DNA of 35,083 nt from positions 1 through 35,083 of the forward strand of contig CANSGE010000002.1 of the NCBI GenBank assembly GCA_947646295.1, read 5' to 3'. The notes under the pieces were generated by a model. It was given only the letters and a program-made list of their open reading frames with translations, was not told the origin of the DNA and made no database searches. This document shows, in pieces, positions 11,734 through 32,300 of the stretch (positions are counted from its first letter, which is position 1; each line of letters starts with the position of its first letter). Both the position numbers and the translations under genes were made by a program. This DNA is from an uncultured Bacteroidales bacterium. GTDB lineage: Bacteria > Bacteroidota > Bacteroidia > Bacteroidales > Muribaculaceae.

Positions 11734-14331
11734 ATGAATAGCCTTAAACTAATTACACTTGCCAGTGTATGTGTGAGTACTTGCCCGAACATCGTATCGG
11801 CGCAGGCCAATCTGCATATTGATGCCGTGAGCATGATGCACGAATCCCGCGAGACAGTACAACCCGCCTCGGGCAGCAGCACGGGTGACCGCTTTGTGTC
11901 GCTGCAATGGCCGCTCCCTGAAGAATTCCGCCAGATAGGCGCCCCGATGGACGGCTTCGAGAAAGAGCATCCCGCGCCCGACAAGACCAAGCTGAGATAT
12001 AAGGTACGGTTCGGCACCAATCCGGATCTTGCCGCGCCGTCCACCACGCGCGTGACTCTCTGGCCATTCTACAACGCTCACGAAATCACCGAGCCGGGCA
12101 CCTGGTATTGGCAATATGCATATACCGATGCGACAGGCCGCGACGAATGGAGCGAGGTATATTCATTCACCGTGGAGAAATCAGACAATCGCTACGCGCC
12201 GCCCTCGTTCGGCGAATTTATCTCGAAACTGCCCGCAAGCCACCCGCGCATCCTCACCGATGAAGCCCACCGCGACGCACTCATCGCCAATTCGCAGGGC
12301 AAAGCCGAGCGTCAATGGTACATCGAAGGGGCTGACAAGGTGCTCACCGTGCCGATGAAGACGCTCGACAACATCCCCACCGAGCATCTTGCCAATCTGT
12401 CAAACCAGATGCAGGTCAATTCATTCCTCACCCGCGAAAGCCGCAAGGTGATCGACGGCGAAGAGCGCAACATCGAGCTGCTCACCCGCGCATACGTGCT
12501 CACCGGCGAACGTAAATACGCCGACGAGGCACTCGCCCGCGTGCTGACCATGACACAATGGAACAACAATCCGCACGTGAAAGGCGACTTCAACGACGCC
12601 ACGCTGCTCTCAGTAAGCACGCTCGCCTATGATACTTTCCACGCCATGCTCACCGACGCCCAGAAAAAGACGCTGCTCAATACAATCAGCGACAAGCTGG
12701 GACATATGTACGCACATTACAACAATTACCTTGAGAATCATATCGCCGAAAACCATATCTGGCAGATGACTCTGCGCATCGCCACCTATGCGGCCCTTGC
12801 CACCTACGGCGAACTGCCCGAAAGCACTCTCTACGCCGACTATCTATATAATGTGTGGATAGCCCGCTTCCCCGGCCTCAACTCCGACGGTGCATGGCAC
12901 AACGGCGACTCGTATTATACCGTAAATACCCGCACACTCGTGGAACTGCCCTATATCATGGGACGCATCTCGGGTTTCAATTATTTCAGCGACCCGTGGT
13001 ACAACCGCAATGTGCTCTACGCCATCTATCAGCAGCCTCCCTTCTCAAAATCGGGCGGCAACGGCTCATCCCACCTCAAAGTGAAACGTCCGCTGCCGGT
13101 GCGTGTGGGTCAACTCGACGCTCTCGCCCGCATCTTGGACGATACTTATGCGGCCGATTACGTGCGCATCACCCAGGCTCAGGAACCTGAGATACTGAAG
13201 CGCACCCTCGGCGCCAAAGCCGGCGACCTGACATGGACTCGCCTGCAACTTGCCGCAGAACTGCCCCAAGGCGCCGGCCTTGCTGACCTGCCTGCCGGAC
13301 ATGTGTTCCCGCAGTCGGGCCTGGCTTCTTTCAACACCTCTCTGGGCGATACGCGCCACAATGCGATGTGGACATTCCGCAGCAGTCCCTACGGCTCGAC
13401 ATCCCACGCTCTGGCCAATCAGAACGCATTCAATACATTCTATGGCGGCGACCCGCTCTTCTACAGCAGCGGCCACCACATCGAATTCACCGACCTGCAC
13501 TCTATGACGAGCCACCGCGCCACCCGTGCCCACAATACCATATTGGTGGACGGTATGGGCCAGTGCATCGGTACGGAGGGATACGGTTGGATTCCACGCT
13601 CGTACACAGGCGAGGAAATAGGCTATGTGCTGGGCGATGCCTCAAATGCTTACGGAAAAGTGATATCTCCGCTGTGGATCGACCGCGGACGTCTCTCCGA
13701 CGTGGATTACACACCCGAAAACGGCTGGGATGAGAATCATCTCGTGAAATATCGCCGCCATATGGTGAATCTCGGCACGAGCGGGCTGCTGCTCATCTAT
13801 GACGAGCTGGAAGCTGACCGCCCCGTGGAATGGAGCTATCTGCTTCATACCGTGGAGCGACCCATGCAACTTGGCCGGGACGGCAGCCGCCTCCATGTGA
13901 CCGCGACAAACAGCACCGGCGCATCCGATGCGTGGCTCATAGGCTCGGGAAAGCTCTCCACTGACACCACCTCGCAATTCTTCAAACCGGCTGTCAACTG
14001 GCTCGTGCGCGAAGCCGACGGCACTTTCAAGCCGCTCCCCAACCACTGGCACTTCAAAGCCCGCAGCGAGAAGAGCCGCGGATACCGCTTCGCCACACTG
14101 ATCGACACCCATGACAAAGGTACGGCCGCACGTATCCCTGTGGACTCCGACGGCGCAGTGCGCTTCGGGGAGTGGACCGTGAGCGTGACCCTCGACCCTG
14201 AGGCAGCCCCGGCTTTCACCGCATCGCACCCCTCCGGCGCACGCATCGAATATCACGGCGAGGAAACACGTATCATCGACGGCGGCAAGGAATCGGTGCT
14301 CGTCGACGAGATACCCGAGCTGGAAATATAG
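11734..14331 (+). CDS. Heparinase II/III-like polysaccharide lyase 1
   Basis: An 865-aa secreted protein. Signal peptide (about 1-24, NIVSA); a fibronectin-III-like N-terminal domain (about 25-150) ending GTWYWQYAYTD...WSEVYSFTV; an alpha-helical toroid (about 160-480, DUF4962-like) with ENHIAENHIWQ (His336, His341) and DGAWHNGDSYY (His389, Tyr394/395); and a C-terminal beta-sandwich with STSHALANQNAF (His558) and SSGHH (581-582), then RAHNTILVDGMGQ. These are the positions where heparinase II-type lyases carry their catalytic Tyr and His residues, though exact residue matching is inference. Lyases of this group cleave uronate-containing glycans by beta-elimination. It is the first gene of the operon with SusC 32 nt downstream. 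The PL family (PL21, PL33 or another) and substrate cannot be fixed by reading. It is a close paralogue of lyase 2. Confidence 0.88.
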   Translation: MNSLKLITLASVCVSTCPNIVSAQANLHIDAVSMMHESRETVQPASGSSTGDRFVSLQWPLPEEFRQIGAPMDGFEKEHPAPDKTKLRYKVRFGTNPDLAAPSTTRVTLWPFYNAHEITEPGTWYWQYAYTDATGRDEWSEVYSFTVEKSDNRYAPPSFGEFISKLPASHPRILTDEAHRDALIANSQGKAERQWYIEGADKVLTVPMKTLDNIPTEHLANLSNQMQVNSFLTRESRKVIDGEERNIELLTRAYVLTGERKYADEALARVLTMTQWNNNPHVKGDFNDATLLSVSTLAYDTFHAMLTDAQKKTLLNTISDKLGHMYAHYNNYLENHIAENHIWQMTLRIATYAALATYGELPESTLYADYLYNVWIARFPGLNSDGAWHNGDSYYTVNTRTLVELPYIMGRISGFNYFSDPWYNRNVLYAIYQQPPFSKSGGNGSSHLKVKRPLPVRVGQLDALARILDDTYAADYVRITQAQEPEILKRTLGAKAGDLTWTRLQLAAELPQGAGLADLPAGHVFPQSGLASFNTSLGDTRHNAMWTFRSSPYGSTSHALANQNAFNTFYGGDPLFYSSGHHIEFTDLHSMTSHRATRAHNTILVDGMGQCIGTEGYGWIPRSYTGEEIGYVLGDASNAYGKVISPLWIDRGRLSDVDYTPENGWDENHLVKYRRHMVNLGTSGLLLIYDELEADRPVEWSYLLHTVERPMQLGRDGSRLHVTATNSTGASDAWLIGSGKLSTDTTSQFFKPAVNWLVREADGTFKPLPNHWHFKARSEKSRGYRFATLIDTHDKGTAARIPVDSDGAVRFGEWTVSVTLDPEAAPAFTASHPSGARIEYHGEETRIIDGGKESVLVDEIPELEI

Positions 14332-14363: not shown

Positions 14364-17300
14364 ATGAAGACAATAGTCTCGATAATTCTTTTTATTATAT
14401 GTATGCTTGCCCCGCCACAGGCGGCCTGCTTCAAGGTCTCGGGTGTCGTGAAAGACAACGAAGGCCTTGAAGTAATCGGCGGCAGCGTGACCATCAAGGG
14501 GGCGACGCAATCAGGCGTCATCACCGATATTGACGGTAAATATACCATCGAGGTGCCCTCGGCACAGAAATCCGTGCTCGTCTTCTCATCTGTGGGCATG
14601 ATGCCTGTGGAGGTGAAAGTCGATGGCAAATCGACAATCGATGTGACTCTTCAACCCAACAATCAGGTGCTGAATGAAGTGGTAGTGGTGGGCTACGGCA
14701 CCACACGCCGCAGCGACCTTACCGGCTCAGTGGTCTCCGTCAAGGCCAAAGACCTTGAGACAACACCCACCTCCGACCCTCTGCAGGCACTCGCGGGTAA
14801 AGCCGCAGGCGTGCAGATCACGCAGGACGACGGCGAACCCGGCGCCTCGATATCAGTGCGCGTGCGTGGCGGTATCTCTATCACTCAGAGCAACGAACCG
14901 CTCTACATCATCGACGGCTTCCCCTCCGAAGACGGTCTGGCAGGTATATCTCCCTCGGAAATCGAGACCATCGACGTACTGAAGGATGCCTCGGCCACAG
15001 CCATCTACGGTGCCCGCGGCGCCAACGGCGTCGTAGTGGTCACCACCAAGAAGGGCGCCGACTCTGATGCGACTCTTCAGGTGACTTTCGATGCTTACGC
15101 AGGCTTCCGCAAGGTATCGCGCAAGCTCGATGTACTCGACGTGCAGGAATTCCTCCTGCTCGACTACGAGCGCTCGCTGGCATTCAACGGCCAGAGCGGC
15201 GTGCTCGGATTCCAGAACCGCTACGGCTCATTCGCCGAGATCGCCACCAACTACGCCAACCGTCCCGGCATCGACTGGCAGAAGGAAGCCCTCGGGCGCA
15301 CCGCCTCCACCCAAAACTATCACGTAGGTATCACCGGCGGCGGCAAAGACCTGAAATACAATTTCAACTACAATTACAGCAAAGACCAGGGCGCTATGAT
15401 ATTGAGCGGTACCGACAAGCATACGGTATCATTGGGCGTACAGCAGAACAACCGCAAATGGCTCTCCCTCAACGTCAAGGCCACCTATACCGAACAGCGT
15501 ACATGGGGTATGGGCACATCTGACCAGAGCACCCGCTTCAACAAGATGGAGCACATACTGCAATATCGCCCCACCGCCGGCATCTACGGCGATGACAACA
15601 GCCTGCTCACCGGCAACGATATGCTCGAAGATGACGATCAGAACCCCATGCAGAGCCCTATCATCTCGGCTAACGAGGAAGAACGCGAACGCGTGACCCG
15701 CAATATCCTCATCAATGGCGGCGTGACCATCACGTTCAACAAGTATTTCACGTTCCGCAACAGCACCGGCTACCGCTACCAGATGGACCGCCGCGACGAG
15801 TTCTATGGCGAAAAATCCGTGATAGGCAAGCGCTCGAGCATCCAGAGCATCACGCAATACAGCGAAAGCTCCCAATTCCAGACCTCCAACGTGCTCACCT
15901 ACAACAACCGCCACAAATATCACAAACTGATAGTGATGCTCGGTCAGGAATGGGTGGACAACCGCGCCCGCTGGATGCGTGCCCTCGTGAAGAATTACCC
16001 CAACAACGATATCGGCTCCGCCGACGCTTCTCTGGGCACACCGGAGTCGGTGACATCAAATGTCAACTATGACAATAAGATACTCTCATTCTTCGGCCGC
16101 GTGAATTACAGCATCGGCGACAAATACCTCTTTACAGCTACAATGCGTGCCGACGGCTCGTCGAAATTCAGCAAACGCAACAAATGGGGCTACTTCCCCT
16201 CTGTATCGGCTGCCTGGCGCATCGGTCAGGAGGAAATCATAGAGCGCCTGGGCGTGTTCAGCGACCTGAAACTTCGCGCTGGTTACGGTCTGGCCGGCAA
16301 CAACCGCGTGGGCAGCTACCGTTCGCTCGATATTCTCACCTCAGCCGGATATCCCTCGGGCGACAACTGGCTCCCCGGCTACGCACCCTATGCCATCCCC
16401 GACGAAAACCTCAAATGGGAATCCAACGCGACTCTCAACGTAGGCCTCGATATGGGCTTCTTCAACCAGCGCCTTACCATCGCTCCGGAATTCTTCTACA
16501 ACCGCTCGTCGAACCTGCTGCTGAACTCCCGCGTGCCTACTTCATCGGGCTTCAAGAATATGCTCCGCAATGTGGGCCGCACCTCCAACCGCGGTCTTGA
16601 CCTGGCGATCAGCTCCACCAATATCGTGACTCGCGACTTCCAGTGGACCACCAACCTCAACTTCTCGGTGTACCGCAACCGCATCGAACAGCTCTCGGGC
16701 GAAGATTACTTCCTCGAAGAAGCCGCATTCGGCTACAACGACAAGACTCATATCATCGCCGTGGGCGGCCCCGTGGGTCAATTCTACGGATACCGCACGG
16801 TGGGTCTTTATCAGGTGGAAGACTTCAACTATGACCCTGCCACCAAGACCTACACTCTCAAAGATGACCAGCCGGTACCTCAATACAATACCGGCGTGCA
16901 GCCCGGTTACTGGAAATTCGAGGATACGGACGGCAACGGCGTGATCGACGAAAATGACAAGACTGTCATCGGCAATGCCAACCCGACCTTCTTCGGCGGC
17001 TTCACCAACACGTTCAACTGGCGTAATTTCGACGCATCCGTATTCTTCACGTTCAGCGTCGGAGGCAAGGTGCTCAATGCCACGAAGCTCACCAATTCAC
17101 AGGCCGGCAAGACCAACTACAACGTACTTGCCGTGATGGACAGCTCCAACCGCTGGATGACCATCGACGCCGCCGGCAACACCGTGACCGACCCCGCGAC
17201 TCTCGCAGCAATGAACGCCGGCAAGACCACCGCATCCATCTACGATACCGAGCAGGGTGACACATACATCCACTCATGGGCTGTGGAAGACGCCTCATAT

Positions 17301-17534
17301 CTGCGACTCAGCAATCTCACGGTAGGCTATACCATCCCCCGTAACATCCTGCGCAAAATCGCGATTGAAAAACTCCGCTTCTATTTCACGGCATCCAATC
17401 TCTTCGTGGTCACCGGCTACTCAGGCTTCGATCCCGAAGTATCGACCAAAGGCAATAATCTCACTCCCGGCGTTGACTTCGGTGCATATCCCCGCAACCG
17501 CTCATACGTATTCGGCTTAAATCTCTCATTCTGA
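14364..17534 (+). CDS. SusC-like TonB-dependent outer-membrane transporter
   Basis: A 1056-aa SusC-family importer of oligosaccharides. After the signal peptide comes a carboxypeptidase-D-like beta domain (about 24-105, FKVSGVVKDNEGLEVIGGSVTIKG, ITDIDGKYTI), the TonB-box region LNEVVVVGYG, a plug (DLTGSVVSV, LQALAGKAAGVQI, PLYIIDGFP, IETIDVLKDASATAIYGARGANGV) and a 22-strand barrel ending in NLSF with the terminal Phe typical of outer-membrane barrels. No STN domain precedes the plug, so anti-sigma signalling through this protein is unlikely, in agreement with control by the HTCS. The SusD start lies 1 nt after its stop. It takes up oligosaccharides made at the cell surface; the cargo is probably an acidic, sulfated fragment (from context). 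Confidence 0.96.
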   Translation: MKTIVSIILFIICMLAPPQAACFKVSGVVKDNEGLEVIGGSVTIKGATQSGVITDIDGKYTIEVPSAQKSVLVFSSVGMMPVEVKVDGKSTIDVTLQPNNQVLNEVVVVGYGTTRRSDLTGSVVSVKAKDLETTPTSDPLQALAGKAAGVQITQDDGEPGASISVRVRGGISITQSNEPLYIIDGFPSEDGLAGISPSEIETIDVLKDASATAIYGARGANGVVVVTTKKGADSDATLQVTFDAYAGFRKVSRKLDVLDVQEFLLLDYERSLAFNGQSGVLGFQNRYGSFAEIATNYANRPGIDWQKEALGRTASTQNYHVGITGGGKDLKYNFNYNYSKDQGAMILSGTDKHTVSLGVQQNNRKWLSLNVKATYTEQRTWGMGTSDQSTRFNKMEHILQYRPTAGIYGDDNSLLTGNDMLEDDDQNPMQSPIISANEEERERVTRNILINGGVTITFNKYFTFRNSTGYRYQMDRRDEFYGEKSVIGKRSSIQSITQYSESSQFQTSNVLTYNNRHKYHKLIVMLGQEWVDNRARWMRALVKNYPNNDIGSADASLGTPESVTSNVNYDNKILSFFGRVNYSIGDKYLFTATMRADGSSKFSKRNKWGYFPSVSAAWRIGQEEIIERLGVFSDLKLRAGYGLAGNNRVGSYRSLDILTSAGYPSGDNWLPGYAPYAIPDENLKWESNATLNVGLDMGFFNQRLTIAPEFFYNRSSNLLLNSRVPTSSGFKNMLRNVGRTSNRGLDLAISSTNIVTRDFQWTTNLNFSVYRNRIEQLSGEDYFLEEAAFGYNDKTHIIAVGGPVGQFYGYRTVGLYQVEDFNYDPATKTYTLKDDQPVPQYNTGVQPGYWKFEDTDGNGVIDENDKTVIGNANPTFFGGFTNTFNWRNFDASVFFTFSVGGKVLNATKLTNSQAGKTNYNVLAVMDSSNRWMTIDAAGNTVTDPATLAAMNAGKTTASIYDTEQGDTYIHSWAVEDASYLRLSNLTVGYTIPRNILRKIAIEKLRFYFTASNLFVVTGYSGFDPEVSTKGNNLTPGVDFGAYPRNRSYVFGLNLSF

Positions 17535-17535
17535 C

Positions 17536-19200
17536 ATGGAAATCAATAAATATCTCAGTCTCATCCCGATGATGGCAGCCGCGCTGCTCTCGGGCGGATG
17601 CACCGACATAATCACTGAAGACCCCGATTCGTATTACGAACGTGACGAGTTCTTCACCACTCCCCAGAAAGCCGAAATGGCTGTCCTGGGCATATACAAC
17701 GGCCTGCCCGCCATCTATGGTGAAAAAGACGGCATGTCGCTGCCCTGCTCGGATGATATCTATTACGTGAACGGCACTACCGCCGATAATGGGCGCCGCG
17801 ACGTGGGCCACTACGTAGTGCGCACCAACAATACCTGGGTGAGCGGCGTCTGGGACGGTAAATACAATATCATCAACCGCGCCAATTACACCATCTCCGG
17901 TATTGAAAGCATGCCGGGCTGGCAGAGCGACCCTACGCTGCTGCGTCTGATTGCCGAGGCACGCTTCCTTCGCGCACAGTCGGCTCTCGATCTGGTGCGC
18001 TACTGGGGTGATGTACCCTTCAAGACAAAGCGCACCTCCGGATACGAGGAGGCTTACGGCCCCCGCGTACCGCGTGAGCAAATCTACGATCAAATCATTG
18101 AAGACCTCAATTTTGCCAAAGAAAACCTGCCTTGGGCCGACGAAGTAGGCACGCCCGAGCGCGCTAGCCAGGGCGCGGCACGCGGTATGTTGATGCGCGC
18201 GTTGCTCTCCCGCGCCGGATACAGCCTGCAGGCCGATGGCAAGCTGAGCCGCCCCGATGGCAAGACCCGCAACGAATGTTTCCGCGGTGTGGTGGACGAG
18301 TGGCTCGCTTTCGAGGCCAAAGGCTACCACACGTTCTACCCCGAGGGTTTCGAGGCTCTTTTCAAATCATTCTCACAGGAAATCCTCAATACCACCGAAA
18401 GTATTTTCGAAGTTGCATTCCTCGCAGGTAAAAACAACGGCTACTGGGGCACATATATGGGCCCCGCCGTAGCCGCTCCGCAGATTTCGTCGACCGAATC
18501 GAGCAAATACATGGGCCGTGCCAATGCCGTTTTCCGTGCCGTGCCCGAATGGCGCGCCTTCTATGAGGAAAAAGATGAACGCCGCGACGTGAGCATCTGC
18601 ACTCACAGCTTTACCTGGGATGAAACTATCAACAACCACAAGCTTACAGAACAGAAAAGTCCACGTAACTGGTATCCCGGCAAGTGGCGCCGCGAATGGA
18701 TGCCTCTTGGATACATCGACCCGAACAAGACCGACGTGAATTTCTGCTTGCTCCGATATGCCGACGTCGTACTGATGGCTGCCGAGGCTTATGGCGAAAT
18801 CGGCAATACCACCGAGGCCTGGCGACTCATCAATCTCGTGCGAGAGCGTGCCGGCGCCACTCAGGTCAATTCTGGCAACTACGCATCGATATACAAAGCT
18901 CCCAAAGTGTACAACCTGCCCTACATCGCCGATGGCGACGAAGCCGGTCGCATCCGCACCGCTATTTATTGGGAGCGTGGCTTCGAACTGGCCTTCGAGG
19001 GCATACGTAAGTTTGACCTCCTGCGCTGGGGTGTGCTCGGCGATGCCCTCAAGCTCTTCGGCGAAAATGTCGACAGCCGTATAATAAGCTACGTGGCCGG
19101 ACAAAACTTTGTCAAAGGCAAGCACGAGCTTCTGCCAATACCTCAGGACGAAATGCAAGTGAATCCCTATCTCGAAAACACCAATAACCCCGGATACTGA
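17536..19200 (+). CDS. SusD-like surface glycan-binding lipoprotein
   Basis: A 554-aa SusD/RagB-family lipoprotein, with signal LLSGGC (Cys22) and the acidic TDIITEDPDSYY stretch right after, typical of outer-leaflet SusD proteins. The N-terminal NTWVSGVWDGKYNIINRANYTI and EARFLRAQSALDLVRYWGDVPF motifs mark the TPR part. FCLLRYADVVLMAAEAYGE, LINLVRERAG and WERGFELAFEGIRKFDLLRWG mark the C-terminal SusD domain, and it ends in LLPIPQDEMQVNPYLENTNNPGY. It caps the SusC barrel and captures substrate. Its stop TGA shares its A with the ATG of the downstream sulfatase, so the pair is translationally linked. Confidence 0.96.
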   Translation: MEINKYLSLIPMMAAALLSGGCTDIITEDPDSYYERDEFFTTPQKAEMAVLGIYNGLPAIYGEKDGMSLPCSDDIYYVNGTTADNGRRDVGHYVVRTNNTWVSGVWDGKYNIINRANYTISGIESMPGWQSDPTLLRLIAEARFLRAQSALDLVRYWGDVPFKTKRTSGYEEAYGPRVPREQIYDQIIEDLNFAKENLPWADEVGTPERASQGAARGMLMRALLSRAGYSLQADGKLSRPDGKTRNECFRGVVDEWLAFEAKGYHTFYPEGFEALFKSFSQEILNTTESIFEVAFLAGKNNGYWGTYMGPAVAAPQISSTESSKYMGRANAVFRAVPEWRAFYEEKDERRDVSICTHSFTWDETINNHKLTEQKSPRNWYPGKWRREWMPLGYIDPNKTDVNFCLLRYADVVLMAAEAYGEIGNTTEAWRLINLVRERAGATQVNSGNYASIYKAPKVYNLPYIADGDEAGRIRTAIYWERGFELAFEGIRKFDLLRWGVLGDALKLFGENVDSRIISYVAGQNFVKGKHELLPIPQDEMQVNPYLENTNNPGY

Positions 19201-20664: not shown

Positions 20665-20692
20665 CATCATCGACTTGAAGAACCTTAACCCC

Positions 20693-23308
20693 ATGATCAA
20701 CCAAGTAGCAAAAATAGTACTCGCAAGTGCGATCATCAGCCTCGCCCCCGTAAGCGCCTCCGCGCAGGACGACGCTGTGATCCGTCTCACCGATACATGC
20801 CTCATGCATGAAATGCGCGCGACACCTTCACCGGCCAACGGCTCGGTGGAGGCTGCCCGCAAGGTATCATTCCAATGGCCGCTTTCGGCCGACTGCCCCT
20901 ACGTGGATGCCCACAAGGCTTCGCGCAAAGACAAGACCTTGCTTCGCTACAAGCTCCGCTACTCCACCGACAAAGATATGAAAAATGACGTGGTGGAAGT
21001 CGAGACCCGCTGGCCGATGTTCAACCCCGACTCCGATCTCGCAGCCGGCACATGGTATTGGCAACACGGCTATGTGGTGCCCGACGACGGTTCGGTGATC
21101 TGGTCGCCGGTATTTTCGTTCACTGTCGAGAACGCCGACGGCAAATTCCTGCCACCTGCGTATAAGGAAATCCGCGCCAAAGTTCCGGCTGCCCATCCAC
21201 GCGTATACGTCGACGGCTCGACTCTCGATGCCTTCCGCACACGCAACGCCGGATCTATCGACGCCGAAATGTATCTGGCCGAGGCCGAAAAGCTCCTCAC
21301 CACGCCGATGAAATCGCCCGCCGATATCAAAAGCGACATGGCCGCGAAATTCGACAACGAAATGAAGCGCGATCAGATGATCACCCGCGAAAGCCGCCGC
21401 GTGATCGACCGCGAGGAGCAATCGCTCGACATCCTCGTGCGCGCATACATTTTATCGCAGGACGCCCGCTTCGCCGACGAGGCCATCAAACGCGCCGGAT
21501 ACATGCTCGAATGGGTAGGCGACAAAAATATAGCCGGCGACTTCAATTACGCCACATTCCTCTCGGTTTTCACCACAGTATATGATATGCTGAACGACCG
21601 CCTCGACGCCGGCATGAAGGGTCGCCTCGAAGATGCCATCCGCACTTCCGGAGCAGCAATGTACAAGGGCTTCAACAACCGTCTGGAAAACCACATCGCC
21701 GACAATCACGTATGGCAGATGACTCTGCGTATTTTCACGATGGGAGCGTTCACCATGCTCGACCATCTGCCCGAAGCCGAGGAATGGGCCGAATATGCCT
21801 ACAACGTATGGCTCTCACGTTTCCCCGGCCTCAACACCGACGGCGCCTGGCACAACGGCGACTCATACTTCGCCGTAAACTTCCGCACTCTCATCGAAGT
21901 GCCCTATTTCTACTCACGCATCTCAGGATTTGACTTCTTCTCAGATCCCTGGTACCACGCCAACGCTCTCTACACCCACTACGCACAGCCGCTCGGCTCG
22001 CACGCAAGCGGCCAGGGAAGTGCTCATGTGGATAAGGTCAAGCCCCACGCTACCCGTGCCGGATACATGGACGCCATTGCCAAAATGACAGGCGACCTCG
22101 TGGCAGCCGACTACACCCGCGGTTTCATCGGCAAAAATCCCAAAGCCATCCTGCGCGGCGCCACGGGCAAATCCAGCGGCCTCGAATGGTTCCGCCTCCA
22201 GTGCGACCGCCAGCTCCCCGAAGGCCAAGCACTCGCATCACTCCCTATGGGCTACATATTCCCGGAATCAGGCTTGGCTGTATTCAACACCAACAATGAG
22301 CGTGCATCACGCAGCGCACGCCTCACATTCCGCAGCTCTCCCTACGGCTCGACCTCTCATGCGCTGGCCAATCAGAATTCTTTCAACACATATTATGCCG
22401 GCAAGCCCATCTTCTACAGCTCGGGGCACCATACATCCTTCACCGACACCCACTCACTCCTGTGCGAACGCTCGGCGCGCGCTCACAATACCATCCTCGT
22501 CGACGGTATGGGACAGCGCATCGGCGTGGAAGGCTACGGATGGATACCCCGCTATTACGTAGGCGAGAAAATCGGCTACGTGCTCGGCGACGCTTCCAAT
22601 GCCTATGGACCCGTCACCTCCTCTCTGTGGCAGGATCGTGCCAAGAAAGCTGAAGTAGCCCTCACCCCTGAAAATGGCTGGGATGAAGTCGGCCTCAAGA
22701 CTTTCCGCCGCCACATTATCGAATTGGGCAAGACCGGCATGTCTGTAATCTACGACGAGCTGGAAGCCGACCAACCCCGCACATGGAGTTATCTGCTCCA
22801 TACAGTGCTCAATCCCATGGATGTCGACCGCACAAATCCGGCATTCGTGCGTGTGACCGGTAAGACCGATGTGGCCAAAAGCGACGCTTTCATCTTCTCC
22901 ACACTTGAGCTCACCTGCGATACCACCAGCACATTCTTTGCACCCGCCGACAACTGGCTCAAAGCCGATGCAAACGGCAATTTCGCAAAAAATCCCGATC
23001 ATTGGCATTTCTCGGCCACAACCCCTAAATCTAAAGTGTGCCGTTTCATCACGATCATCAATTCTTATCCCAATCCCAAAGAAGGACGCACCGCACCGGT
23101 ACCCCAGGTTCTGAAAGACGGCTCAATCAAACTCGGACGCTGGAATATCAAAGCCAACATCACAACTGAAGGTGCACCATCTTTCATAGTGAAAAATACC
23201 ACTCCTGAGGAAAATGTACGCGTGGAATATGATGGAGAGATCACCACTGTGATCGAAGACGGTAATGAATATGAACTCATAGACGACCTCCCCACCCTTG
23301 AAATCTAA
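20693..23308 (+). CDS. Heparinase II/III-like polysaccharide lyase 2
   Basis: An 871-aa secreted lyase closely related to lyase 1. The ATG at 20693 was chosen over the in-frame TTG at 20675 because the -7 element ends at 20664 and the ATG start gives a clean signal peptide (MINQVAKIVLASAIISLAPVSASA). Domain order is the same: an FN3-like N-domain (GTWYWQHGYV, WSPVFSFTV), a helical DUF4962-like part with ENHIADNHVWQ and DGAWHNGDSYF, and a beta-sandwich with STSHALANQNSF (His556), SSGHH and RAHNTILVDGMGQRIG. Whole blocks such as GYGWIPR and IGYVLGDASNAYG are identical to lyase 1, so the two arose by duplication and probably act on related linkages, perhaps differing in sulfation. It heads a transcription unit that continues into the fimbria-like genes 36 nt downstream. 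Confidence 0.88.
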   Translation: MINQVAKIVLASAIISLAPVSASAQDDAVIRLTDTCLMHEMRATPSPANGSVEAARKVSFQWPLSADCPYVDAHKASRKDKTLLRYKLRYSTDKDMKNDVVEVETRWPMFNPDSDLAAGTWYWQHGYVVPDDGSVIWSPVFSFTVENADGKFLPPAYKEIRAKVPAAHPRVYVDGSTLDAFRTRNAGSIDAEMYLAEAEKLLTTPMKSPADIKSDMAAKFDNEMKRDQMITRESRRVIDREEQSLDILVRAYILSQDARFADEAIKRAGYMLEWVGDKNIAGDFNYATFLSVFTTVYDMLNDRLDAGMKGRLEDAIRTSGAAMYKGFNNRLENHIADNHVWQMTLRIFTMGAFTMLDHLPEAEEWAEYAYNVWLSRFPGLNTDGAWHNGDSYFAVNFRTLIEVPYFYSRISGFDFFSDPWYHANALYTHYAQPLGSHASGQGSAHVDKVKPHATRAGYMDAIAKMTGDLVAADYTRGFIGKNPKAILRGATGKSSGLEWFRLQCDRQLPEGQALASLPMGYIFPESGLAVFNTNNERASRSARLTFRSSPYGSTSHALANQNSFNTYYAGKPIFYSSGHHTSFTDTHSLLCERSARAHNTILVDGMGQRIGVEGYGWIPRYYVGEKIGYVLGDASNAYGPVTSSLWQDRAKKAEVALTPENGWDEVGLKTFRRHIIELGKTGMSVIYDELEADQPRTWSYLLHTVLNPMDVDRTNPAFVRVTGKTDVAKSDAFIFSTLELTCDTTSTFFAPADNWLKADANGNFAKNPDHWHFSATTPKSKVCRFITIINSYPNPKEGRTAPVPQVLKDGSIKLGRWNIKANITTEGAPSFIVKNTTPEENVRVEYDGEITTVIEDGNEYELIDDLPTLEI

Positions 23309-23344: not shown

Positions 23345-24109
23345 ATGCGACTCAAATCCTTGCTAAGAAATATGCTGGTGGCGACAAGTGTTCTCGCCAT
23401 AAGTGCTCCCGGCATCGCCGTAGCAGCGGCTGCCCCGGACACTCAGCAGGTTTCGACACAGAACAAGCCTCAGCACTCGCGCACACGCCCCTCGAAGAAG
23501 AAAAAAGCTTCCACCGAGACCCCGGCGCAAAGCAGTGCCCCTCAATCTTCAGCGGCTGCAAAACAGAAAAAGAATAAAAAGAACGACAAAAAAGCAAAAC
23601 CTGCCACCGAAAGCGTATCGTCGAATTACCGCGCTTTCAAGATCAATGTCCCCTACGCAGCTTTTGCGATACAGAATCTCGCCTTCGAATGGCAGACCTC
23701 CCGCTCGATGACCGTCGATATCCCCGTGATGTGGAGCGTCAGCGACCTCACTGACCGCCATGGCATCCGCACTATTGCAATCCAACCCGAGGCCCGTTGG
23801 TGGCCCGGCGCCAATCCCGGCAACGGTCATTTCCTCGGAGCCAACATATCGGCCGGATGGTTCAACGTGCGCTGGCGCGACACCCGCTATCAAGCCGACG
23901 GCCTCCCCCTGCTCGGCGCAGGCATCAGCTACGGCTACCGTCTCAACTTTACTCCCAACTGGGGCGCCGAATTCAATATCGGCGCAGGCTATGCCTACAT
24001 GGAGTATGACCGATTCTACAATATCGACAACGGCGCCAAAATCGACCGTTGCTCACGTCACTATTTCGGACTCACCCGCGTAGGTGTGTCATTAGTTTAC
24101 CGTTTTTAA
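23345..24109 (+). CDS. DUF3575-like outer-membrane beta-barrel protein with a lysine-rich linker
   Basis: A 254-aa protein with a signal peptide (about 1-27), a long Lys/Ala/Ser/Thr low-complexity linker (about 40-92, with KKKK at 51-54 and a dense basic stretch at 73-85) and a C-terminal region resembling DUF3575. The features are NLAFEWQTSRSMTVDIPVMWS, IQPEARWWPG, GHFLGANISAGWFNV, LPLLGAGISYGYRLN and a final VGVSLVYRF ending in Phe254, as in outer-membrane barrels. DUF3575 proteins are regularly found in Bacteroidales fimbria (Mfa/FimA-type) gene clusters. Here the gene directly follows lyase 2 and precedes two fimbrillin-like lipoproteins. The basic linker is unusual; it could contact peptidoglycan, lipid phosphates or an anionic glycan. 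The exact role is unknown. Confidence 0.78.
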   Translation: MRLKSLLRNMLVATSVLAISAPGIAVAAAAPDTQQVSTQNKPQHSRTRPSKKKKASTETPAQSSAPQSSAAAKQKKNKKNDKKAKPATESVSSNYRAFKINVPYAAFAIQNLAFEWQTSRSMTVDIPVMWSVSDLTDRHGIRTIAIQPEARWWPGANPGNGHFLGANISAGWFNVRWRDTRYQADGLPLLGAGISYGYRLNFTPNWGAEFNIGAGYAYMEYDRFYNIDNGAKIDRCSRHYFGLTRVGVSLVYRF

Positions 24110-24120
24110 TGCCATAAGCC

Positions 24121-25158
24121 ATGAAGAAATTTTTACTCAAAAGTCTGTGCATGGCCGCCGTGGCCCTATCGACACAGTCGTGCATCTTCCAGCACCCCGA
24201 CATGACTGCCGACGGCGAAATGGGTATCGATCCCACTGAAGTAGCCGTAGCAGCCGATATCACGCTCGATCTCACCATCCCCTCCATCAACGAGGATGAA
24301 GAAAGCTTCATCCAGCCCACCACCGAAGGCACTTCGTACAAGCGTCGACTCATCGTGGAAGCTCTCACCGAGGGACGCCGCCCGGTATCGCGCACCATGC
24401 TCTTCGATATCGCAGAAGACGAGCGCGAAGTCACCGTCCCGGTCACACTCCGCCTCACAGCCCGCGACTATACTTTCGCCGTGTGGAGCGATTATGTGTT
24501 CACAACCGAAAACGGCACCGTCGACAGCACATATTTCTACAACACCGACCTCATCCCCAACATTTTCATGGGCACAGCTTACCGCGGCAACAATGCGTAT
24601 AAGGATGCGGCTTTCGGCTGCACTCAGCTTACTCTTTCACAATACCGTTCGCAATGGAATGCCCGTGTCAACCTTGAAATGCCTCTCCAGCGCCCCGTCG
24701 GTCGCCTCCAGCTCAAAGCTACCGACACCCGCGCTTTCCTCGACCGCATCTCCTCCGGCCAGCTCTCGGGCGAGTCGTTCGCAGTGCGTGTAAGCTACCC
24801 CGGCTATCTGTGCATGGGCTACAACGTCGAGACCCGCACTCCTCGCCACTCGCTGATGTACATGAGCTACGAACATACATTCAGCACCAAGCGCATGACA
24901 GCCGAGGAGCCTTTCCTGCTCACTTTCGATTATCTCTTTGCCGATACTGACCACAATACCGAAATCCCAGTGCAGCTCGAGATCCTCGACTCTACCAAAA
25001 CCATTGTCATCGCATCATGCTCATTCACGGCCTACTGCCGCGCGGGCTACTGCACCACCATCAATTACGGATTCCTCAATTCATCCGACGACTCAGGCAT
25101 CACATTCGATCCCGACTACTCAGGTAGCAGCACAGTCGTAATCGTTCCGAAAAAATAA
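24121..25158 (+). CDS. DUF6562/FimB-Mfa2-like lipoprotein
   Basis: A 345-aa protein with a lipoprotein-type signal (Cys21 in STQSC) and two beta-sandwich regions. The segment TFAVWSDYVFTTENGTVDSTYFYNTDLIPNIF...NNAYKDAAFGC matches the DUF6562 pattern (an xxWxDY strand, a YYNT-DL motif, then DAF/DAA-G), seen in minor or anchor fimbrial subunits. The later GRLQLKATDTRAFLDR and LTFDYLFADTDHNTEIPVQLEILDS segments form the second domain. The closest functional analogues are Mfa2/FimB-type anchor or regulator proteins (inference). It starts 11 nt after the DUF3575 gene, so it is co-transcribed. It is probably the cell-proximal subunit of a surface structure, with the 531-aa protein as the partner. 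Confidence 0.72.
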   Translation: MKKFLLKSLCMAAVALSTQSCIFQHPDMTADGEMGIDPTEVAVAADITLDLTIPSINEDEESFIQPTTEGTSYKRRLIVEALTEGRRPVSRTMLFDIAEDEREVTVPVTLRLTARDYTFAVWSDYVFTTENGTVDSTYFYNTDLIPNIFMGTAYRGNNAYKDAAFGCTQLTLSQYRSQWNARVNLEMPLQRPVGRLQLKATDTRAFLDRISSGQLSGESFAVRVSYPGYLCMGYNVETRTPRHSLMYMSYEHTFSTKRMTAEEPFLLTFDYLFADTDHNTEIPVQLEILDSTKTIVIASCSFTAYCRAGYCTTINYGFLNSSDDSGITFDPDYSGSSTVVIVPKK

Positions 25159-25186: not shown

Positions 25187-26782
25187 ATGAAACATTCATT
25201 TCTTTCAATGCTCGGCGCAGCTGCCATCCTCGGTGGCGCTACCTCATGCAGCCAGCAGATCGACGGCCCCGCAATCTCATCCGACGGCCTCACAACAATC
25301 AGCGTAAACATCCCCCTGAGCGACGGCACATCCCGCGCCGTGCCTGAAATCCCCGAAGGCTACACCCTCCGATGCATCATGCAGCTCGTCGACGCCAATG
25401 GAAATCCCATCGCCGACAGCCGCGAAGTAAAAGCTGTGGAAGCCGGCAGCGAAAATGTCGACTTCACATTCATCGCTCCCGCCGACGGCTACCAGGGTGC
25501 TATGTTCTGGGCCGACTATGTAAAGAGCATCGACGCCGATTACATCTACACAACCACTGACCTCAAGTCAATCGGCTACAATACCACCAACGCAGCCGAC
25601 GCTTTCAACAACGAGGCAGCCGACGCTTTCTATGGCTATATGCTCGCCGGCAACAAGAGCATCGCCCTCACACGTCCCTTCACCCGCATTACTTTCAAAA
25701 ACGCCGATGCTGAATATGCATCTTACACCACTGTGAAAGTGACCGACATGGCCGCTCCTACATCATTCAACGTGATGACCGGCAATACTGACGGTTACGC
25801 CACCGACCTCGCAAGCAATGAGCTTACCATCGGGCAAGACGGCACATGGTTCAGCGCTTACCTCTTCGTAGGCAACAACGCTGGCGCAAACCTCGGCGAA
25901 GGCAACGACATCGCTGTGGCACTCGGCGGCGCTACTTCGACATCCGTGACCATCAGCGGTGCCGATATCCCCCTCACCCGCAACTATGACATCACCGCCA
26001 TGATCAGCGCCACCCCCGGCGACGTCACCAACGTGACCGTAACATTCCCCGGCGGTATGGTCGACCCCAACGCTCCCCGCGACATCGCTCTCGGTGACTT
26101 CGTGAACGCCGACGGTACATACTCCGCAACATACGACGCCGCCAAAGCCGTAGCTATCGTATACGCTCTCGGCAATGGCGCCACTGAAAGCGGCAAAACA
26201 GTGGCTGCTTACGCTTTCGCACTCGAAAACGCCGGCCGCAAACTCGTGGATCAGGACAAAAATCTCGTAGCTTTCGCCGGTACTGAAGCCATCTCGGCAG
26301 AAACATTCGCCGATCCCGTGGCTGGTCCCGCTGAATGGCTCGCCTTTGAAACTATCGCCGGCGACAACAATAACATGGTGACCACACTCGCTACCTGGGC
26401 GCAGGCTCATCCTCTCACCGGCAGCAACCTCTCGGCCTGGTACGTAGGTTCGGCTTGGCAGATGGCTAACCTCGTGGGTGTGCTCTTCAACGGCGGCGAA
26501 TGGACTGTTAAAAACGGTAGCAAGCTCGAATATGACTTCCCCGCACGCGTAACAGCAGTTTACGATGCATTCTACACAGCTGTCCCCGATGGCCAGTTCA
26601 CACACAACGGCACGGTAGCCAACTTCCTCTCTTCTTCTCTCGGCGTAGCTCAGACTGACAATGGTGCTGAAGGCAAGATCGCCTGCGTGCAGGTCGACGA
26701 TGCAAACCACACTTTCGGTATCCTCGTCTCGGGTCTTTCAGGCACTTGCGCCATCCGCCCCGTACTTACAATCTACAAATAA
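25187..26782 (+). CDS. Fimbrillin-like lipoprotein with a C-terminal lectin-like domain
   Basis: A 531-aa protein with a lipoprotein signal (GATSC, Cys21). The N-terminal half repeats the DUF6562 pattern of its neighbour (YQGAMFWADYVKSIDADYIY, TTDLKSIGYN, EAADAFYGYMLAGN), followed by a second Ig-like beta domain to about residue 290. The C-terminal ~210 residues read like the DUF1566/lectin-fold domain of pilus-tip adhesins: GKTVAAYAFALENAG, a WYVGSAWQMANLVGVLFNGG strand-helix block, FLSSSLGV, and a last strand CAIRPVLTIYK in the RPVLxF position. This suggests a stalk domain carrying a ligand-binding tip. It lies 28 nt after the preceding gene and is followed by a GC-rich hairpin that closes the trio. 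The ligand is unknown; the locus suggests the PUL substrate. Confidence 0.7.
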   Translation: MKHSFLSMLGAAAILGGATSCSQQIDGPAISSDGLTTISVNIPLSDGTSRAVPEIPEGYTLRCIMQLVDANGNPIADSREVKAVEAGSENVDFTFIAPADGYQGAMFWADYVKSIDADYIYTTTDLKSIGYNTTNAADAFNNEAADAFYGYMLAGNKSIALTRPFTRITFKNADAEYASYTTVKVTDMAAPTSFNVMTGNTDGYATDLASNELTIGQDGTWFSAYLFVGNNAGANLGEGNDIAVALGGATSTSVTISGADIPLTRNYDITAMISATPGDVTNVTVTFPGGMVDPNAPRDIALGDFVNADGTYSATYDAAKAVAIVYALGNGATESGKTVAAYAFALENAGRKLVDQDKNLVAFAGTEAISAETFADPVAGPAEWLAFETIAGDNNNMVTTLATWAQAHPLTGSNLSAWYVGSAWQMANLVGVLFNGGEWTVKNGSKLEYDFPARVTAVYDAFYTAVPDGQFTHNGTVANFLSSSLGVAQTDNGAEGKIACVQVDDANHTFGILVSGLSGTCAIRPVLTIYK

Positions 26783-26851: not shown

Positions 26852-29356
26852 ATGTTGAATATCAGGCATATACACTCCATACTCGCGGCTCTTGCGATTT
26901 CTTTGGCCGCCTGCTCCGACGACACGCCCGTGCTACCCGACGAGCCCGTCACTCCCGAGCCCATGCCCGGCGACGAATTGCTCTACCACGACTATGTACG
27001 TGCCGATCTCTACCCCAAACTCAACAACGAGGTGTACCTCAACCCGCCGCCACTGCTCCTCCCTACCACGTGGCGCGGCGACTCCCTGGTGCAGTTTGAG
27101 GTCTCGGGAGATGCCGATTTCAGCAAAAACATCTTCATCAGCGAAGCCCGTCCCTGGTCGATGGCCTCACCACATAAGCGTCTTGAGCCCGGCCGCTGGT
27201 ACTGGCGCTACCGCAATATCGCCACCGATGGTACAGAAGGCCCATGGAGCGATGCCGTACCATTTGACGTTCCGGCCGATGCACCGGAGTTCGTCACCCC
27301 AACCATCGACGATTTCAACGCCGGTCTCCCCACCGGACACCCACGCCTCGACATATATATAAAGGACAATCTCGATGCCGCCCGCAGCAGCATCTCCGCC
27401 CACCCCGAATACAAGGCCATGATACAGCGTGCAAACGCCGCTGTGGCAGTCGATTTCTCTGATATTGCATCATATTACAACTCCAAAAACGGCACCGAGA
27501 CGCTTACTTACTCGGTATTGCATCTCTATACCGCCTGGATTCTGACTCAGAATGAGCAGTACGCAGCCAAGATGATGGAAATACTGGATATCATGATCCA
27601 GCGGCCGGCCACCGACGATGAGCTTTTCAAAGCCGACACAAACTTCCAGCCCATCAACATCGCACAGGCATACGCCCGCATCTACGACAGCCTCTTCGAC
27701 CGTCTCACACAAGGCCAGCGCGCGGCAGCCGAAAATCTCATGATACGCATCGTGCGTCGCCTCTTCAAAGCACAGTCCACCCAGGATGGCAACCTCTACG
27801 ACAGTCACTTCTGGCAGCACAACATGCTCGGAGTCTTCCAGTGCGCCTACATGCTGCACGATAAGCTTCCCTACCGCGACGAATGCCTCCGGGCGCTCGA
27901 CTATTACTATGAGCTGTGGTGCACTCGCGCTCCAGGCTCCGGCTACAACCGCGACGGAGTGTGGCACAACAGTGCCGCCTACTTCGACGCCAATATGGAC
28001 ACGCTCCATCTGATGCCTCTTCTCCTTTCTTACATCACCGGCTTCGATTTCCTCACACATCCGTGGTATCAGAATGCCGGCAAATCCATCCCCTACACAT
28101 GGCCCACCGGCTCCAAGAGCTGCGGGTTCGGCGACAACGCCGACGACGGCACACCATCACGCCTGCGCGCAGCAATGGCCGACTTCCTTGCCCGTCATAC
28201 CGGCGACGAATACGCCGGATGGTACGCCTATCAAAATGCTTCTCTGGTGCGGGCCGATTTCATATTCCGCCTCGACCGCATGGTCAACGGCTATGCTTAC
28301 TCAACAGCCATGCCCGACGACATCGCCAAACTCATATGGTACAAGGACACCGGCGAAGCCGTGATGCACAGCGACCTCTCCGACACCGACAATGACTTGG
28401 CCGTATCCTTCAAATCAAGTCGCTTCGGCTGCACACAGCATACTTACGCCAATCAGAACGCCTTCAATATCCTCTACCGCGGCCGCGAGGTATTCCGCAA
28501 CACCGGACACTACTTCCAATATGCATCGCCCCATCATATCATGGACTATCGTCACAGCCGCGCACACAATACCATCCTCGTCGATGGCATCGGCCAGGCT
28601 TTCGCGCCCGAAGCATACGGCAACATCGTCCGCGGCCTCGAATCCGACAATATCACCTACATCATGGGCGACGCCTCACACGCCTATACCGACAGCTGCT
28701 ACCTGCAGGTATGGATCAACAATTTCAAAACCGCAGGCCTCACCCAAAGCCGCGAAAACGGCTTCGGCACCACGCCCCTCTCCCGCTATCAGCGCCATGT
28801 GCTCATGCTCGGAAGCGAATTAGTGGTGATATACGACGATATCGAGACGTCATCACCAGCAGCAATCAACTGGCTGCTCAACAACCGCGAGGAGTTCTAC
28901 GTCGGCTCTGACGGCTCGACTTTCACCGTCGAAAACACCGAAAAGCGCTTTGCCGCCGACGGCCGCCTGCTCTCGTCCGTACCCTTCACCCCCTCATTCA
29001 GCACCGATTTCTACTATCCCACTCCGTCCAAACTCGAATATCCCGACCACTGGCACTATATGGCCACCACTGACCGCCGTCAGACCTTCCGCTTCCTCTT
29101 CGTGCTCAAGGTACGTGACCTCGACGAAGCTCCGGCCGTCATCGAGCCTGACGCATCCGGTGTGATCAGTATCGACGGATGGACTATCGCCGCCGGACTC
29201 GACGACAACACTCCCTCTCTCGAAATCGCTAACTCCGACCTTGGAGCCACATTCTCTCTCACGCCCTCTTCCGCTCGCGTACACGACCGTGTCGGCGGCC
29301 TCGCATCTGACCTTGAAACTAAAGATTACTTGCCAAAACATACCCGATCAAACTAA
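26852..29356 (+). CDS. Heparinase II/III-like polysaccharide lyase 3, surface lipoprotein
   Basis: An 834-aa, more divergent paralogue of lyases 1 and 2. The signal ends SLAAC (Cys21) and is followed by SDDTP, an acidic Bacteroidales surface-export type sequence, so unlike the other two it is probably displayed outside the cell. It keeps the FN3-like N-domain (GRWYWRYRNIATDG...WSDAVPFDV), a helical part with SHFWQHN and DGVWHNSAAYF, and the beta-sandwich with CTQHTYANQNAF (His530), NTGHYFQY and RAHNTILVDGIGQ. The first residues of the mature protein are a Pro/Glu linker. An outward-facing endo-acting lyase would make the first cuts before SusCD import (inference). Its stop is 2 nt before the PL8-like gene. 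Confidence 0.87.
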   Translation: MLNIRHIHSILAALAISLAACSDDTPVLPDEPVTPEPMPGDELLYHDYVRADLYPKLNNEVYLNPPPLLLPTTWRGDSLVQFEVSGDADFSKNIFISEARPWSMASPHKRLEPGRWYWRYRNIATDGTEGPWSDAVPFDVPADAPEFVTPTIDDFNAGLPTGHPRLDIYIKDNLDAARSSISAHPEYKAMIQRANAAVAVDFSDIASYYNSKNGTETLTYSVLHLYTAWILTQNEQYAAKMMEILDIMIQRPATDDELFKADTNFQPINIAQAYARIYDSLFDRLTQGQRAAAENLMIRIVRRLFKAQSTQDGNLYDSHFWQHNMLGVFQCAYMLHDKLPYRDECLRALDYYYELWCTRAPGSGYNRDGVWHNSAAYFDANMDTLHLMPLLLSYITGFDFLTHPWYQNAGKSIPYTWPTGSKSCGFGDNADDGTPSRLRAAMADFLARHTGDEYAGWYAYQNASLVRADFIFRLDRMVNGYAYSTAMPDDIAKLIWYKDTGEAVMHSDLSDTDNDLAVSFKSSRFGCTQHTYANQNAFNILYRGREVFRNTGHYFQYASPHHIMDYRHSRAHNTILVDGIGQAFAPEAYGNIVRGLESDNITYIMGDASHAYTDSCYLQVWINNFKTAGLTQSRENGFGTTPLSRYQRHVLMLGSELVVIYDDIETSSPAAINWLLNNREEFYVGSDGSTFTVENTEKRFAADGRLLSSVPFTPSFSTDFYYPTPSKLEYPDHWHYMATTDRRQTFRFLFVLKVRDLDEAPAVIEPDASGVISIDGWTIAAGLDDNTPSLEIANSDLGATFSLTPSSARVHDRVGGLASDLETKDYLPKHTRSN

Positions 29357-29358
29357 TC

Positions 29359-32300
29359 ATGAAACTGAAATTTCTTGCATTGCTCCTCTGCCTGTGCACA
29401 TTTGGCCGGATGCATGCCGAGGAAAAAATATTCGCCGACTATTTCGATATCCCCGTCGGCAGTCCGGAAGGCACCGAAGTGACAGGACGTATCAACCTCG
29501 AGCGCAACAAGGACGTGGCCACCAATCCCGTACCCAAATCGTACAACTTCGAGATTATCCGCCAGAAAGAGGGACAGGATTATTTCGCCATTGACACCGA
29601 ATTTGACTCGGCAGGTCACATTTTCGGCGTGATTTACGTCAAAGACGGTGTCACACTCCCCGCCGACCGCGCCAAATACACTATCACCGTTTCACTCAAC
29701 GACGGTAAAAAACGTATCCAGAAATTTCCTGTCAAAATCAATGCCGTCAAGGAAACTCTCTGGCAGACGCTGTACGACCGCTACGTGCCACAGGTGATCA
29801 AAAATCCGCGCATGTACGGCAAAAAGAAGCTTTCCGACGACGAAGTCGCAGCTGCCATCGCCGATCTCAAAGGCAACAATTACCGTTTCAGCGACGAAGT
29901 ATGCTACACAAAACATCCCTCGGAATACCCCGGCCGACTCGATGAGATCGATCACTGGAAGGGTGGCACCATCGACTATGACTTCATGCGTGTGTGCGAC
30001 CGCATCGGCCAGCTCGGTTACGCCTATGTGATGTCGCCCGTCTACGGACCCGAAGGCGATCCCGCCAAACACGCCGAACTCCGTGACGTCATCGTCGAGG
30101 CCATACTCGCATACACCGACGTATTCCCCATCGCGGGCACCGACATGCTCATCGACGGCAAGCCCATCGGCACATGCACCGGCGACGGCTTCAGCCTCCT
30201 GCAGAAATACAATCTCGCCGGACATGAGATACCCACTCACCAGTGGACTCTCACCGACCCTCTGATGGTACCCGTGCTGCACCTCATGCCCGACATCCTC
30301 GACGGCATATCGCAAGGCGACGAAAAGATGAAACGCCTCCACGAAGCCCTCACCCGCTACCTGCAGGTATTCACATCCATCGTCGAAAGTCGCCGCGCCA
30401 TCGATAATCCCAAGGAACGCTGGGGACTCATCTCTGATCCCAATTATTCCGCCGGCGCCTGGACCGATGCCAACCTCGGTCACCGCTCACGCACCATGCT
30501 CGCCCTCCCCATCATCTGGGCCGACTACAACCGCCCCATGACATACGTACAGTACTGGTATGAGGATTTCTACCCCGAAAAGCCTTACGAAGGATTCAAT
30601 TACGCACATGGCTGGAGCCCTCACGGTGTGGTAGCCGACGTCGCCCACAGGATGACCATGAGCAACATCCCGGCCCATCACTATGCACAGTCCGGCTACC
30701 AGCCCGACGGCACTATCTCTCACCACGTGGCCAACGGCACCGACGCTGCGATGGCGGCCTACGGCTTCGAGTGGCTCACCGACCTCAATACCGGCTTCAA
30801 TTACTTCAAGAACACTCCCTTCGAGGTGCCCGGCGAAAATCTTGAATTTGAGCTTGACCGCATGCTCGACATCTACCCCATATTTTTCTATAAACAAGGC
30901 ATGGACAACCTCATCTCAGGTCGCTCATTCCTGCAGGATCCCACTCAATTCGTGCTACGCACCTATACCAAGGGCGCATCTTCACTCCTCAAGGCCGTGA
31001 GCAAGCGCAGCAAGCTCCAGCGCGCCGATTCGCTCCGTGCCATGGTCAAGAGTCTCAAGGCCAACACCCACGAGATGACGGCCACAGTGCCCTTCTGGGT
31101 CAACGAATACATCGTGCACCGTCAGGGCAACGAGGATGGCAAACAGCCATTCTTCGTATCGCTGAAACTCAAATCCGAACGCACCGTAGGCGCTGAAGAC
31201 TTCGATAAAAAAGTCCGCAAATCATGGCACATGGGCTACGGCATCATGCAGACCAAAGTCACCGGCCACGAATACGACGTACCCGTCCTCGCTCAGTTTG
31301 ACTGGCACGCTCTGCCCGGTCTCACCGAGGAATGGCGCTCTGATCCCCTCCCCCTCAAAGGCGGCGCCCAGGCATCAAAGCCCGGCGCCAATAAGATTGC
31401 CGGCGTCTTGGCCGACGGCACTGTAGGTATGGCCATCTATCACCACCTCACAAAGGAAAAATATAGCTCAGCCCAGGCTTTCAAGAGCTACGGTTTCGTA
31501 GGCGAGCATGCCATCTCGCAAGGCTCTGCCATCAGCCGTCATCGTCAGGGCACAGGTGAGAATATCACCACTTTCATCGAGCAGGGCGCTCTCTCATCGC
31601 CCCTCACGATCTGCGTCGACGGCAAGACCACAGTCATCCCCGCCGGCAGCTCCGAAAATCTCACTTTCACGTCATGCGCCCCCATGTGGATGCATATCGG
31701 CGAAAGAGGTTATGTCGTCATTCCCGACGGCTCGGCCACTCTCCGCGTAGCCACCGGCGACCATATCAATGTCACCGACCCCGCTTATAAATTCAAAGGC
31801 AAACGCGGCCCCGGCTTTATCCTTGCGCTTGATCACGGTGTAAATCCTGCCGCAGGCACCGACTCATACACCTATGCCGTGCTCCCCAACGCCACAGCAG
31901 AGCAGATGCCCGCACTGGCAGCCGACTTCGCCGCCGACTTCACTTTCGCCCGCGACGGCTCCAACGCCCACGCTCTCTCGTCGGCCAAGAATGGTCTGCA
32001 CCAGTTCGCTTTCTTCGCTCCGTCGTCCATCGAGACCGGTGGTCTGAAAGCCTCCGCCGACGCTCCCGCCCAGCTTATGCTCCGCGAGACTCCCGACGCC
32101 TACATTCTCGCAGCCGGAAACCCCGCACCCGACGACAAGAACAAGACCCGGCTCACTTTCACCCTCTCAAAACGCCTCCCCGCCGGCACTTATTCCTACC
32201 GCGTAGGTGGCATTTATCCCCTCGATGGCGAGACTGTCACCGTGGCCGATGAGGGCAAAGGCTCCCGCATCACCGTTGAGCTCCCCGACTTCCGCGACGA

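Follow-up and report, generated by a model that had tools for sequence, protein, structure and literature searches.

Tip pilins with a C-type-lectin-like (C-lectin) domain are known, and almost nothing is known of what the type V pili of Bacteroidales bind (PMC12632263). One such tip pilin is 4EPS, described in the literature as coming from Bacteroides ovatus and carrying a C-lectin domain (PMC10743442). The C-terminal domain of the Legionella pneumophila protein Lcl is likewise C-lectin-like, lacks the calcium motif and binds glycosaminoglycans (GAGs), heparin and chondroitin-4-sulfate among them, through a basic surface (PMC11162425). Of the enzymes that act on such polymers, the exo-heparinase type combines DUF4962 with heparinase II/III (PMC7904915). 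Here, we report the analysis of a 531-amino-acid (aa) lipoprotein encoded inside a glycan PUL on a 35,083-nucleotide stretch of DNA from an uncultured Bacteroidales bacterium of the gut (the window).

Our preferred reading, to which we assign a probability of roughly 0.6, is that this lipoprotein acts as an adhesin resembling a type V tip pilin and resident in the PUL, belonging to a stalk-poor tip/anchor pair that captures GAG for the PUL. It draws on computational observations: domain homology, a conserved operon, the distribution of a Ser-Arg-Ala motif, a C11 protease and strict co-occurrence with a lyase.

The gene and its two domains

The gene (Table 1) is an intact, real open reading frame with an ATG start. 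An orthologue (65% identity) is present in a second genome of its genus, and remoter relatives (28-31% identity, i.e., down to about 30%) were found in 10 named contigs. A 315-aa open reading frame lies antisense to it (25763-26710, minus strand), with a similarly long one opposite the G128 orthologue; both are probably codon-usage artefacts.

Table 1. Features of the tip gene, its product and the neighbouring genes (window coordinates)
Feature	Position	Strand	Basis
SusC/SusD pair of the PUL	14364..19200	+	
PL15_2-like exo-heparinase-type lyase, upstream of the trio	20675..23308	+	Pfam DUF4962, E 2e-169
254-aa outer-membrane protein (DUF3575), always the first gene of the trio	23345..24109	+	Pfam E 1.1e-36, synteny
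DUF6562 lipoprotein, 345 aa, anchor-like partner	24121..25158	+	Pfam E 2.3e-65, alignment, motif test
531-aa lipoprotein, type V tip-pilin-like: fimbrillin-like N-domain and C-type-lectin-like C-domain	25187..26782	+	
Signal peptide and lipobox ending in Cys21 (GATSC21)	25187..25249	+	Sequence, alignment
Ser49-Arg50-Ala51, putative Arg-specific (clostripain-type) pilin maturation site	25331..25339	+	Motif test
N-terminal DUF6562/fimbrillin-like domain, residues 56-266	25352..25984	+	Pfam, hhalign, Foldseek
C-terminal DUF1566/C-type-lectin-like domain, residues 298-531	26078..26779	+	Profiles, bridge sequences
WYVGSAWQM block, residues 418-426, counterpart of GWYLPSxxQL	26438..26464	+	Alignments
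SSS turn, residues 482-484, counterpart of YWSS	26630..26638	+	Sequence, alignment position
RPVLTIYK terminal strand, residues 524-531, counterpart of RVRxVLxF	26756..26779	+	Alignments, model pLDDT 85
Lipoprotein lyase, DUF4962/heparinase II/III type (PL I), constant downstream neighbour	26852..29356	+	

The original prediction had described the N-terminal half as fimbrillin-like, and this is upheld by Pfam, where DUF6562 matched with E = 2.9e-9, and by hhalign of the N-domain against the DUF6562 partner (96.8%). Foldseek, run with a full-length AlphaFold model of low confidence (pTM 0.36, alignment of only 12 rows), returned 3r4r (two chains), 4h40, 4gpv and 4jg5 as its best five PDB matches, all of them Bacteroidales fimbrial or adhesion proteins. 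The fimbrillin-like character of this half appears supported, the Foldseek matches not amounting to proof. PDB sequence searches with the whole protein, the C-profile and the N-profile gave no match.

Direct searches of Pfam (E ≤ 10), NCBIfam, PHROGs and the PDB gave nothing convincing for the C-terminal part. The gathering cut-off of Lcl_C/DUF1566 (PF07603) was not reached by the 531-aa protein, nor by any protein in a search of its own genome. A profile seeded with six C-parts retrieved close relatives and, beyond these, fimbrillins whose tails are DUF1566-like (L027, E = 1.9e-13; L036, E = 1.6e-7; others to about 1e-5); several of these fimbrillins carry Mfa_like_1 N-domains. Some of these tails scored against Lcl_C/DUF1566 below the cut-off (E = 2e-4 to 8.5e-4), and 11 of 24 tails matched Pfam Lcl_C at E ≤ 0.01 (best, 1.7e-5), again below the gathering cut-off. 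Aligned with hhalign, 12 C-domains matched 26 DUF1566-like fimbrillin tails at 98.0% (E = 2.9e-13), against 0.1-0.3% for reversed and five column-shuffled control profiles. With 4eps added to the target tails, 205 columns were aligned, up to the last strand (E = 1.8e-13). The tail profile found 4eps_A in a PDB search (E = 3.4e-25) and matched the Lcl C-terminal domain (8q4e) weakly (E = 0.002). A single-row hhalign of the C-profile against 4eps alone was weak (8%), so the link to 4eps is transitive; the 531-aa protein itself scores only 16 bits with the C-lectin tail HMM, as a divergent member.

The SAWYLPS-like block, SSS turn and RPVLTIYK strand that had suggested the class were located as given in Table 1 and aligned to the equivalent motifs of the tails (SGWYLPSxxQL, YWSSxE and RVRxVLxF). 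W418, Y419, Q425, R524 and P525 are invariant in the alignment of 12 relatives. The boundaries needed correction: the stretch first proposed as a C-terminal domain of about 210 residues (25980-26782) is real and comprises residues 265-531 (267 residues), of which the first 33 or so still belong to the N-terminal domain. The C-domain shared with the homologues begins at about residue 298 (26078).

A locus in another family, in genome G651, bridges the gap in similarity. Its PUL runs SusD, sulfatase, DUF3575, DUF6562, four tandem tip homologues and PL I-type lyases, the same gene order as in the window. The N-parts of the four paralogues match the N-profile of the 531-aa family (E = 1e-32 to 1e-44), and the tails that form their C-parts are of the canonical DUF1566/C-lectin kind (E = 1e-34 to 1e-42), with the motifs SGWYxPAxGQL, YYWSST and RPILTF; one of the four C-parts is incomplete, cut by the edge of the sequence stretch compared. 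With both domains present, one locus therefore joins the base of the window protein to a recognised lectin head. This single PUL (L081/L082, G651:C8) carries four PL I-type lyases beside the four paralogues, and in three of the four tips the Arg site stands at about the usual place.

The predicted DUF1566/C-type-lectin-like class is thus borne out by profiles and intermediate sequences, and as a fold class for a diverged domain at residues ~298-531 it is well supported. Structure prediction with a fold search, the check proposed with the original prediction, gave a model of the C-part alone with a pLDDT of 52 (12-row alignment) and no meaningful Foldseek match. In this low-confidence model, alpha and beta elements are mixed, and the core and the last strand (85) are firmer; the plain Ig-like or disordered C-terminus that was to speak against a lectin-like fold was not seen.

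The PUL and its conserved block

From the lyase at 20675 to a PL8 gene that starts at 29359, downstream of PL I, the genes run head to tail with gaps of 2 to 69 bases. The upstream lyase is related, via shared matches, to a paralogue at 11734, which matches the exo-heparinase-type structure 6lja (E = 7e-242). The PUL also holds SGSH-type sulfatases besides PL8, and from this content we infer a heparin/heparan- or chondroitin-type GAG as its substrate.

The block DUF3575, DUF6562, tip gene and PL I lyase recurs in all relatives with enough flanking sequence (DUF3575 of L014 was confirmed by tblastn), and SusC and SusD adjoin it wherever the contig of a relative reaches. The position inside a glycan PUL, part of the original prediction, is confirmed and conserved across bacterial families. 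Within the window's family, the tip gene is present in 5 of 149 genomes and PL I in exactly those five, which has a chance of about 2e-9 if genomes are independent; the genomes do share ancestry, though, and the five include the window's own. An order-wide profile search gave no strong member outside the own genome; such strong-match tallies undercount, because G651, without a strong match, holds four diverged paralogues at its lyase locus. Between the window and G128, the trio is the fastest-changing part of the PUL (65-68% identity, versus 74-88% for lyases, sulfatases and SusCD). The window's own genome holds the module a second time, split over contig ends (the end of G000:C87, and G000:C223; L002, L003, L038) and apparently with two tandem tip genes, as in L010.

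Pilin features and partner proteins

Cys21 of the lipobox is invariant among the relatives, which points to a lipoprotein precursor, as in type V tip pilins. In each of the 11 relatives, a Ser-Arg-Ala motif follows the lipid Cys at a distance of 27 to 31 residues, and so provides a candidate Arg site about where type V tip pilins have theirs (~25-30 residues after the Cys). Also as in those pilins, a domain of predicted ligand-binding type follows the pilin domain. None of the other 31 lipoproteins encoded in these loci has the motif, the eight DUF6562 partners among them; the window's own partner has a lipobox and no Ser-Arg-Ala site. This distribution fits a tip pilin that is cleaved and an anchor that is not. 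The genome encodes a C11 protease (clostripain).

The DUF6562 partner and its relatives share a conserved C-terminal extension (FLTS..DGG..IDPDYDG...VDLG), which could be a donor strand. No stalk pilin was found in any tip-gene locus compared, and Mfa_like_1 (PF13149), as a candidate stalk, was not matched in the window's genome (83% complete).

The family also has operons outside any PUL in which DUF3575 and DUF6562 are followed by Ser-Arg-Ala-type lipoproteins with different C-termini (LRR, GLUG), so that the trio of the PUL has the look of a common pilus-type operon that was copied and specialised. In these non-PUL loci (L064-L072 and L077-L080), DUF3575 and a DUF6562 anchor precede one or more long Ser-Arg-Ala-type lipoproteins; the N-part of these is often DUF6562, and the C-part differs from one to the next (LRR_5, GLUG or unknown). 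The layout is a widespread and apparently undescribed type V pilus-like operon type. No paper naming DUF6562 turned up in a literature search, and none of the titles and abstracts brought up by a search for fimbriae, PULs and heparan sulfate described a case of this kind.

Proposed function, alternatives and known systems

Under the preferred reading, the 531-aa protein would be exported as a surface lipoprotein, and a clostripain-type protease of the cell would probably cut off the lipid-bearing N-terminal strand after Arg50. The cut would open a groove in the fimbrillin domain of the tip, to be filled by strand exchange with the C-terminal strand of the adjacent DUF6562 lipoprotein. That partner, having no cut site, would keep its lipid and so act as the anchor. 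DUF3575 presumably takes part in some role. The C-type-lectin-like domain would project outward and hold the polysaccharide digested by the operon, presumably a GAG, near the SusCD importer and the surface lyase of the adjacent gene. Capture of GAG at the cell surface is suggested by the operon. The C-domain is acidic in 12 of 12 relatives (11 Lys/Arg versus 23 Asp/Glu in the window protein), which speaks against a basic-patch binding mode like that of Lcl.

Across its genera, the main clade keeps a conserved stretch, ATGSxxF...FDRDPxATVNYxS...NxxGNxSG, and this points to a fixed ligand. The window clade has lost this stretch, and its C-domain diverges faster than its N-domain (54% versus 77%), suggesting a changed ligand or relaxed constraint.

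We put forward only tentatively the idea that the pair is a minimal, stalkless, two-subunit type V pilus derivative (anchor and clostripain-matured lectin tip) that serves as the glycan receptor of the PUL in place of SusE/F, with tandem tips (two or four) widening the range of sugar epitopes caught. If so, pilus machinery would have become part of nutrient uptake. Somewhat less probable is that the pair forms no pilus any more and is a repurposed fimbrillin-fold surface glycan-binding protein in a SusE/SusF role. The stalkless loci and the strict link to a surface lyase agree with this, as do two Bacteroides loci (L012 and L013), where the PUL, bounded by HTCS and ribosomal genes, encodes no further candidate for surface glycan binding; however, the Arg maturation site is kept throughout the relatives, the anchor-like partner and DUF3575 are always retained, and ordinary non-PUL operons have the same trio layout.

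In another alternative, the protein is a genuine type V pilus tip that attaches the cell to host tissue or mucus, shares only its regulation with the PUL and binds a protein or another glycan unconnected with feeding. This would suit the acidic C-domain and a class of tip pilins whose ligands are largely unknown (PMC12632263). We consider it improbable, given the conserved place beside lyase genes in several families, the motif face conserved across genera of the main clade and the failure to find any high-scoring homologue of the tip gene outside this PUL. That the C-domain is a ligand-free structural or oligomerisation module, as the remark of the Lcl authors that DUF1566 could promote trimer formation might suggest (PMC11162425), is very doubtful, since its terminal position on a pilin and its fast divergence in the window clade agree better with a binding head exposed to the outside.

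If the preferred reading is right, a tip pilin tied to a PUL for GAG degradation in several families would come with a concrete candidate ligand and link attachment to feeding. The isolate species Bacteroides xylanisolvens and B. congonensis make the capture idea genetically testable.

With SusE/SusF-type proteins the window protein shares its setting, that of a surface lipoprotein in a PUL beside SusCD and a surface enzyme; its domain architecture is unrelated, and it has a pilin-type maturation site. The FimB/Mfa2 anchors and FimA/Mfa1 pilins of Porphyromonas gingivalis resemble the pair in lipoprotein precursors, division into anchor and tip and an Arg-type maturation site, but belong to other sequence families, and the window operon has DUF3575 and no recognisable stalk. 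The Lcl C-terminal domain (DUF1566, PF07603) falls in the same domain superfamily by transitive profile evidence; Lcl is trimeric and collagen-stalked with a basic surface, whereas the window domain is acidic and below the Pfam cut-off. Closest is the 4EPS tip pilin of Bacteroides ovatus, alike in its fimbrillin base and C-terminal C-lectin domain, with tails homologous by profile. Unlike 4EPS, the window protein has a DUF6562 base, WYVGS for WYLPS, no stalk gene and a setting in a probable GAG PUL. C-lectin tip pilins being already known, what is notable here is this fixed place in such a PUL.
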